Origin: Herminiimonas sp.
Lineage (GTDB): Bacteria; Pseudomonadota; Gammaproteobacteria; Burkholderiales; Burkholderiaceae_D
Length of the DNA stretch: 64,000 bases
Reading direction: 5' to 3'
Assembly: GCA_027310305.1 (NCBI GenBank)
Contig: DAIDBD010000007.1
Coordinates: forward strand, 124,001 to 188,000
A program made the position numbers and the translations under genes. Position 1 is the first letter of the stretch; each line of letters begins with the position of its first letter. Below, one piece after another: positions 24,891 to 25,114 of the stretch. The notes under the pieces are model-generated. The model saw nothing but the letters and a program-made list of their open reading frames with translations, made no database searches and had not been told where the DNA came from.

Positions 24891-24996
24891 CTGACTTCCG
24901 TCAGCAGCATGCCCAGGTAGCCACGATCCTCAAGGCTACGGCGCGGTTCCGACCGCGTTGATCATCCCAGTTCGCACAGGCATCCATGCGCGAACG
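24891..24996 (+). ncRNA. Structured leader element, copy C, upstream of the DUF3577 gene
   Basis: GCTGAC/GTCAGC 24891-24906; GTAGCC/GGCTAC 24918-24940; CGCGGT/ACCGCG 24943-24958; GTTCGC/GCGAAC 24971-24996. Confidence 0.65.
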
Positions 24997-25114
24997 CCCA
25001 TCGGTTTCCGATGGTGGTGCCACCAAGCTGTTCCATCAACCCACGCGGGGGTTCCACACCTTCCCCGCCTTGGGTCGGGTGTGTCTCCGCCTCATTGTTC
25101 TCAGGAGATTCACC

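Follow-up and report, generated by a model that had tools for sequence, protein, structure and literature searches.

Weinberg et al. (2010; PMC2864571) described the radC motif of Proteobacteria as a likely cis-regulatory RNA without an assigned function, and none has been assigned to this radC RNA (Rfam RF01754) since then. PMC7657543 lists RF01754 among the families whose database structure misses covarying pairs. The transfer-competence regulon of ICEclc, an element of Pseudomonas knackmussii, is described in PMC9286271 and PMC7423338 and includes inrR, alpA, traI and ORF67231. According to PMC9286271, these four as well as the ORF88400, ORF81655 and ORF58432 regions are on the list of bimodally expressed ICEclc regions, and expression at the latter three depends on BisDC and InrR. 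IncA/C plasmids carry AcaCD-type class 2 promoters, in which an activator motif lies just upstream of the −35 box at a fixed distance to the transcription start (PMC4207636). Here we add evidence for helix P4 and a pseudoknot in the radC RNA, an analysis of its folded strand, start site and Shine-Dalgarno (SD) hairpin, and its placement in the ICEclc system.

Four radC RNA copies in an ICEclc-family element

A cmscan with Rfam 15 of the window (the whole stretch of 64,000 nucleotides from Herminiimonas sp. analyzed here) returned exactly four matches, all to the full length of RF01754 on the + strand, with scores of 95–125 bits at a gathering cut-off of 40 bits (Table 1). The copies also share the strand and the gene neighbours of RF01754, and are members of an already described family. 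This comparison with Rfam had been proposed by a sequence-only reading of the same DNA, which had noticed four structured copies in one orientation upstream of start codons; all four were real, and their cis-regulatory position as a four-copy family within one ICE was supported. The core quoted in that reading stood, and the extent of the copies had to be enlarged by two more hairpins before the start codon. Its suggestion that copy C may be a separate DUF3577 RNA motif, of a kind listed by published computational screens, was not supported: copy C does precede a DUF3577 gene but is radC RNA, as are the other three, and Rfam 15, which may lack a family of that name, gave no DUF3577 RNA match with E of 1 or below. 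The only other Rfam match in the window within this limit was a chance one, to CsrC (20.8 bits). Beyond the four window copies, no radC RNA was detected in the rest of the genome, and the E. coli collection gave no match.

Table 1 Coordinates of features in the window (position 1 is its first letter)
Feature	Position	Strand	Evidence or remark
bisR-like gene	1788		
alpA	2711		
parA	2968		
bisC-like gene	5784		DUF2857
AcaB-like gene	7768		
DUF3158 gene	8535		
ssb	9080		
Topoisomerase gene	9750		followed by radC-RNA-led genes, then T4SS
Copy B, promoter motif	12276-12304	+	PWM 18.1 bits
Copy B, radC RNA	12332-12477	+	113.6 bits; 5′ of 83-aa gene, homologue of ICEclc ORF88400
Copy B, P4 and pseudoknot	12428-12477	+	P4 12428-12433/12449-12454; GCATCG 12437-12442/CGATGC 12472-12477
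Copy B, P7	12524-12554	+	GGCTTCTCC/GGAGAACC, before ATG 12556
Copy D, promoter motif	14146-14174	+	PWM 17.4 bits
Copy D, radC RNA	14201-14358	+	95 bits; 5′ of 265-aa gene; variant class without pseudoknot
Copy D, P7	14357-14387	+	GGGAGTCCCTTG/CAAGGAGTCTCC, before ATG 14389
Copy C, promoter motif	24816-24844	+	AATACGGGCATTGGCGAATGCCGATACCT; PWM 24.3 bits, best in window
Copy C, −10-like box	24871-24876	+	ACGCTT, aligned to ICEclc inrR −10; inferred from spacing
Copy C, radC RNA	24872-25020	+	125 bits, E 1.7e-23; 5′ of DUF3577/STY4534-family gene
Copy C, P1	24882-24911	+	CATG..GCTGAC/GTCAGC..CATG; first base is predicted transcription start; covariation, inrR geometry
Copy C, P2	24917-24939	+	GTAGCC/GGCTAC, conserved bulge and loop; covariation
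Copy C, P3	24942-24957	+	CGCGG/CCGCG; covariation
Copy C, P4	24970-24995	+	GTTCGC/GCGAAC, absent from Rfam model; covariation
Copy C, pseudoknot	24979-25021	+	GGCATC 24979-24984 with GGTGCC 25016-25021; covariation
Copy C, P5	24997-25014	+	last Rfam hairpin; Rfam match, covariation
Copy C, P6	25045-25068	+	GCGGGG/CCCCGC; 5′ arm and loop are a possible alternative partner of the P7 anti-SD arm
Copy C, P7	25078-25114	+	GGTGTGTCTCC/GGAGATTCACC, hides SD directly before ATG 25115
DUF3577/STY4534-family ICE protein gene	25115-25630	+	homology; ICEclc ORF81655 homologue
Copy A, radC RNA	49816-49964	+	120.8 bits; intercistronic, 5′ of ICE radC gene
Copy A, P4 and pseudoknot	49911-49964	+	P4 49911-49916/49932-49937; GCATCC 49920-49925/GGATGC 49959-49964
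Copy A, P7 partner strand	50022-50031	+	GGCGTCCTCC
Copy A, P7 3′ arm	50043-50053	+	GGAGGTTCGCC
ICE radC gene	50054-50548	+	homology; ICEclc ORF58432 homologue
traI homologue	59767		

The window represents an ICEclc-family ICE, with proteins collinear with those of ICEclc, synteny from bisR/alpA/bisC to traI, and the syntenic core of the family (bisR, alpA, parA, bisC (DUF2857), AcaB-like gene, ssb, topoisomerase, T4SS and traI). Copies D and C, only about 1.5 kb apart in compact relatives, are separated here by other genes at 16764-24709, which for this reason look like a cargo-gene insertion. The ICEclc sequence (genome G336) was identified by content: the inrR promoter boxes known from the literature occur in it twice, in agreement with its two ICEclc copies. 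ORF names were assigned via the stop coordinate with an offset of about 172–188. Each ICEclc carries five radC RNAs, located before homologues of the window's four radC-RNA-led genes and one more gene; three of them precede ORF88400, ORF81655 (DUF3577) and ORF58432 (RadC). Because inrR, alpA, traI and ORF67231 have no radC RNA, the latter is not a universal element of the ICEclc regulon.

A pattern scan of named genomes yielded 120 loci, and 29 genomes were then searched whole. All 29 core-carrying genomes contained further copies or at least one above the cut-off, typically 4–5 per element, and these whole-genome searches gave mostly 3–12 copies each, co-oriented and clustered in elements. 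We assembled 215 leaders (79 non-redundant), every one followed by a co-oriented gene, with 181–292 nt between the Rfam 5′ end and the start codon and a narrow range within each class. Sorted by the downstream protein, the leaders formed five large classes, c0 (RadC, 60 leaders), c1 (DUF3577, 56), c2 (ORF88400 family, 38), c3 (265-aa family, 32) and c4 (a further family, 11), besides a few small ones, including c5 (the ICEclc copy at 3379780), whose start codon is probably misassigned and which carried no weight in our conclusions. On an Enterobacter plasmid, one radC-RNA-bearing ICE region (L015, 37788-37985) encodes a CsrA homologue as well.

Secondary structure and pseudoknot

The structure was assessed on the alignment of the 79 non-redundant sequences, using a model of 41 pairs that comprised P1–P5 and the pseudoknot. 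Changes on both sides were found at 33 of the 41 pairs, a number reached in 0 of 500 shuffles, and 88.0% of cells were paired, compared to 30–47% after the partner strand was slid by 1–3 columns. The covariation score was 0.333 versus 0.186 in the shuffles and 0.05–0.12 in the slid versions. The stems quoted in the sequence-only reading are present in the sequence, and the covariation from which it had suggested a functional RNA is real among these relatives, where P1, P2, P3 and the last hairpin all covary. Its stem 4 (GTTCGC/GCGAAC, GTCCGC/GCGGAC) corresponds to P4 and proved genuine, covarying in the 79 sequences though unpaired in the Rfam model.

The loop of P4 pairs with the strand immediately 3′ of P5 to form a covarying pseudoknot. 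Independently of the alignment, all 64 leaders outside classes c3 and c4 had a helix of 5 bp or longer joining P4 loop and tail, and in 63 of these 64 (the exception being L273) it was the homologous pseudoknot pairing, with pair types GCATCC/GGATGC, GGCATC/GATGCC, GCATCG/CGATGC, GCTTCC/GGAAGC, GCATTC/GAATGC, GCTTCT/AGAAGC and GCACTC/GAGTGC. The score of the pseudoknot strands with their own partners was 15.84, against 13.70 (sd 0.33) and a maximum of 14.96 in 5000 partner shuffles. Classes c3 and c4, copy D among them, have no pseudoknot. The RF01754 model instead draws a 3-bp helix from the 3′ strand of P4 and that of the pseudoknot; this helix shows no covariation and is disrupted in sequences with a changed pseudoknot. 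Because PMC7657543 lists the family as missing covarying pairs, part of this correction may be prior work, possibly present in the supplement of that paper.

Two other proposals were rejected by inspection. The P2 loop (UCUUC) was dismissed as a partner of the SD site since it varies to non-complementary forms in the alignment, and a leader peptide starting at the ATG in P1 was dismissed since the reading frames differ between copies.

Promoter motif, RNA start and folded strand

Upstream of the RNA we found a 29-bp promoter motif with the consensus AATNNGGG-N10-G-N-TGCCGATT-NCC. Its PWM was learned from relatives, leaving out the ICEclc and window sequences, and the score ceiling in shuffled ICEclc sequence was 13.5 bits. 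Of the 134 c1–c4 leaders, 121 carry the motif at −52 to −57 relative to the Rfam 5′ end, as opposed to 0 of 59 leaders of c0. In ICEclc, it was also found at ORF67231 and at inrR, where its end is the published −35 box and the transcription start, mapped in PMC2892462, is 66 bp from the motif start. Applying this 66-bp spacing to the window placed the predicted starts at 24882 (copy C), 12342 (copy B) and 14212 (copy D). For copies C and B the prediction falls on the first P1 base, and for copy D one base inside P1, suggesting that transcription of the promoter-proximal copies begins at P1. In PMC2892462, a weak product of primer extension was seen about 250 nt before the start codon of ORF81655, which is compatible with the 224 nt predicted for this gene. 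The conserved unpaired positions 1–10 of the RF01754 model (augcUucccc) coincide with the expected −10 box; they are probably part of the promoter and may not be transcribed. In motif placement, the arrangement resembles that of the AcaCD-type promoters, the activator site here being putative.

Further motif copies lacking radC RNA are found on the + strand of the window at 50632 (19.9 bits), 41038 (18.3), 18729 (16.6) and 7676 (14.7), two of which precede genes as at inrR and ORF67231 in ICEclc: the motif at 7676 by 92 bp (AcaB-like gene) and the motif at 41038 by 90 bp (gene at 41128). The 27-bp ICEclc motif published in PMC9286271 cannot be the radC core, because inrR, traI and ORF67231 have no radC RNA, and a de novo search for it in seven ICEclc promoters gave no clear motif above shuffles. 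In that paper it is 152 bp from the inrR start, compared to 38–66 bp here, and may therefore differ from the 29-bp motif. One relative (L122, around 401-587, + strand) combines the promoter and P1 of class c3 with P2 onward and the gene of class c1, apparently through recombination between two radC RNA copies with deletion of the intervening gene.

In four relatives, TTGACA or TTGACT at the −35 position replaces the motif and the RNA is kept; two of these four were put through a simple sigma-70 scan, which scored no full promoter. In 58 of 59 c0 cases, the dsbA-like gene upstream extends into the radC RNA and has its stop codon in P2; copy A likewise overlaps the 3′ end of a dsbA-like gene, and no terminator-like site was found upstream of the c0 RNA. 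Because of this overlap and the absence of such a site, the c0 radC RNA cannot be just a promoter, and its structure is kept despite its place between two genes that share an operon. The non-Watson-Crick pairs of the sense strand comprised 242 G-U versus 72 A-C in the whole structure, and 129 versus 24 in P2–P5. Since a sense-strand A-C would be a G-T on the opposite strand, the large excess of G-U indicated that the sense strand is the folded one. These data bear on the possibility that a DNA element, either an activator binding site or a leading-region ssDNA promoter, was mistaken for an RNA. The conserved DNA motif upstream, the leading-region type of the downstream genes and the resemblance of Rfam positions 1–10 to a −10 box would all fit such an element. 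However, an ssDNA promoter of the conjugative leading region folds from the template strand and predicts the reverse of the observed G-U to A-C ratio, the radC-gene copies, located between co-oriented genes, have the structure but not the motif, and the four relatives keep it with a hexamer in place of the motif, making a DNA element highly improbable.

SD hairpins and a model for control of transfer genes

Nearly every leader ends with a GC-rich hairpin, P6, followed by P7, which carries the SD site in its 3′ arm and often reaches the start codon. The mean pairing probability of the SD was 0.86 in the leaders versus 0.62 at 175 other starts of the same elements (p 4e-17, uncorrected for relatedness), SD-hiding hairpins being present at ordinary genes too. 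The duplex of the SD arm with its own partner had −15.7 kcal/mol compared to −12.9 (sd 0.28; minimum −13.8) in 2000 shuffles. P6, through its 5′ arm and loop, could be an alternative partner of the anti-SD arm: this pairing had −18.7 with the own partner versus −15.6 (sd 0.34; minimum −16.8) in 5000 shuffles, and the excess of this pairing over dinucleotide shuffles was −4.5 in the leaders versus −1.0 at control starts. Because sequences within a class are related, the p-values overstate, and the comparisons should be read as measures of fit and not as counts of independent events; the partner changes seen from class to class in SD and anti-SD are compensatory. The alternative pairing is weak in some copies (−8.7 in the ICEclc ORF88400 copy) and is partly accounted for by the resemblance of P6 to P7. 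Judged from sequence, the leaders have the SD-hiding hairpin with a mutually exclusive partner that characterizes translational riboregulators.

We propose, with a probability of about one half, that the radC RNAs are leaders controlling translation of transfer genes, composed of a receptor domain and an SD-hiding platform behind a promoter that further genes of transfer competence share. The four window copies would be 5′ or intercistronic leaders of transfer-associated operons, the promoter-proximal ones transcribed from a shared, probably activator-dependent promoter into an RNA beginning with hairpin P1. The P1–P5 domain with the P4 pseudoknot would serve as the receptor for a putative trans factor, which would most likely be an ICE product since the family is tied to ICEs. 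Translation would be off when the anti-SD arm occupies the SD site (P7) and on when it pairs with the upstream arm of P6, the state of the receptor deciding between both. PMC9286271, which gives the highest ICEclc read coverage upstream of ORF81655, suspects post-transcriptional control. The ICEclc promoter-reporter data reflect control of transcription, not of translation, because the reporter had its own ribosome site. More tentatively, the radC RNA could be a pseudoknotted, ICE-specific switch in which an ICE-encoded factor makes the ribosome sites of several operons accessible simultaneously through a shift of the anti-SD arm from P7 to P6, a doubtful extension of the leader model. Such a factor would bind the RNA either in transfer-competent cells or shortly after transfer, in the new host. 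If true, the switch would be a translational gate that comes second, after the BisDC transcriptional switch, and in widespread ICEs a gate of this kind on transfer genes would give the restriction of transfer to few cells a further level. The corrected structure, the placement at the 5′ end of transfer operons and a concrete on/off model make the function of radC RNA testable in ICEclc, for which single-cell reporters, mutants and RNA-seq are available.

The combination of a pseudoknotted receptor with an SD-hiding expression platform is also the architecture of a metabolite riboswitch, which might sense a signal of the host such as one of stationary phase. We regard a riboswitch as very unlikely: no ligand candidate has emerged, and an element-encoded regulator fits better with an RNA that is restricted to ICEs and related plasmids and has several copies in each element, before unrelated transfer genes.

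A role in stability or processing, in which the 5′ structure protects the mRNA from end-dependent decay or provides a processing site and the SD hairpin is incidental, would agree with P1 at the predicted 5′ end, with the rapid cleavage of the 68241-81655 mRNA inferred in PMC2892462, and with ICEclc read coverage, which is highest upstream of ORF81655 (PMC9286271). The intercistronic radC-gene copy would fit a processing site. This role is nevertheless unlikely, as it leaves unexplained both the elaborate conserved pseudoknot domain and the SD-hiding hairpin with its alternative partner conserved across five gene classes.

Because the radC RNA copies head long operons, the domain might instead govern read-through of RNA polymerase into the long transfer operons by attenuation or antitermination. 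Terminator-like sites were detected in 31 of 79 leaders compared to 5.7 in mononucleotide shuffles, a lenient control that destroys all hairpins; they were concentrated in c3 and c4, and copy C has one weak site. Most of the listed sites are weak (5–6 pairs, broken T runs), and most leaders of c0–c2 have no hairpin followed by a U-tract, which makes attenuation distinctly unlikely as a general function. It is possible, and least unlikely, in c3 and c4, because the pseudoknot is absent there and P3 often precedes a U-rich stretch. This stretch after P3 (window 14268-14300; L171 around 17700-17760; GGTCTTTTTTCTT in ICEclc) sets these two classes apart from the others.
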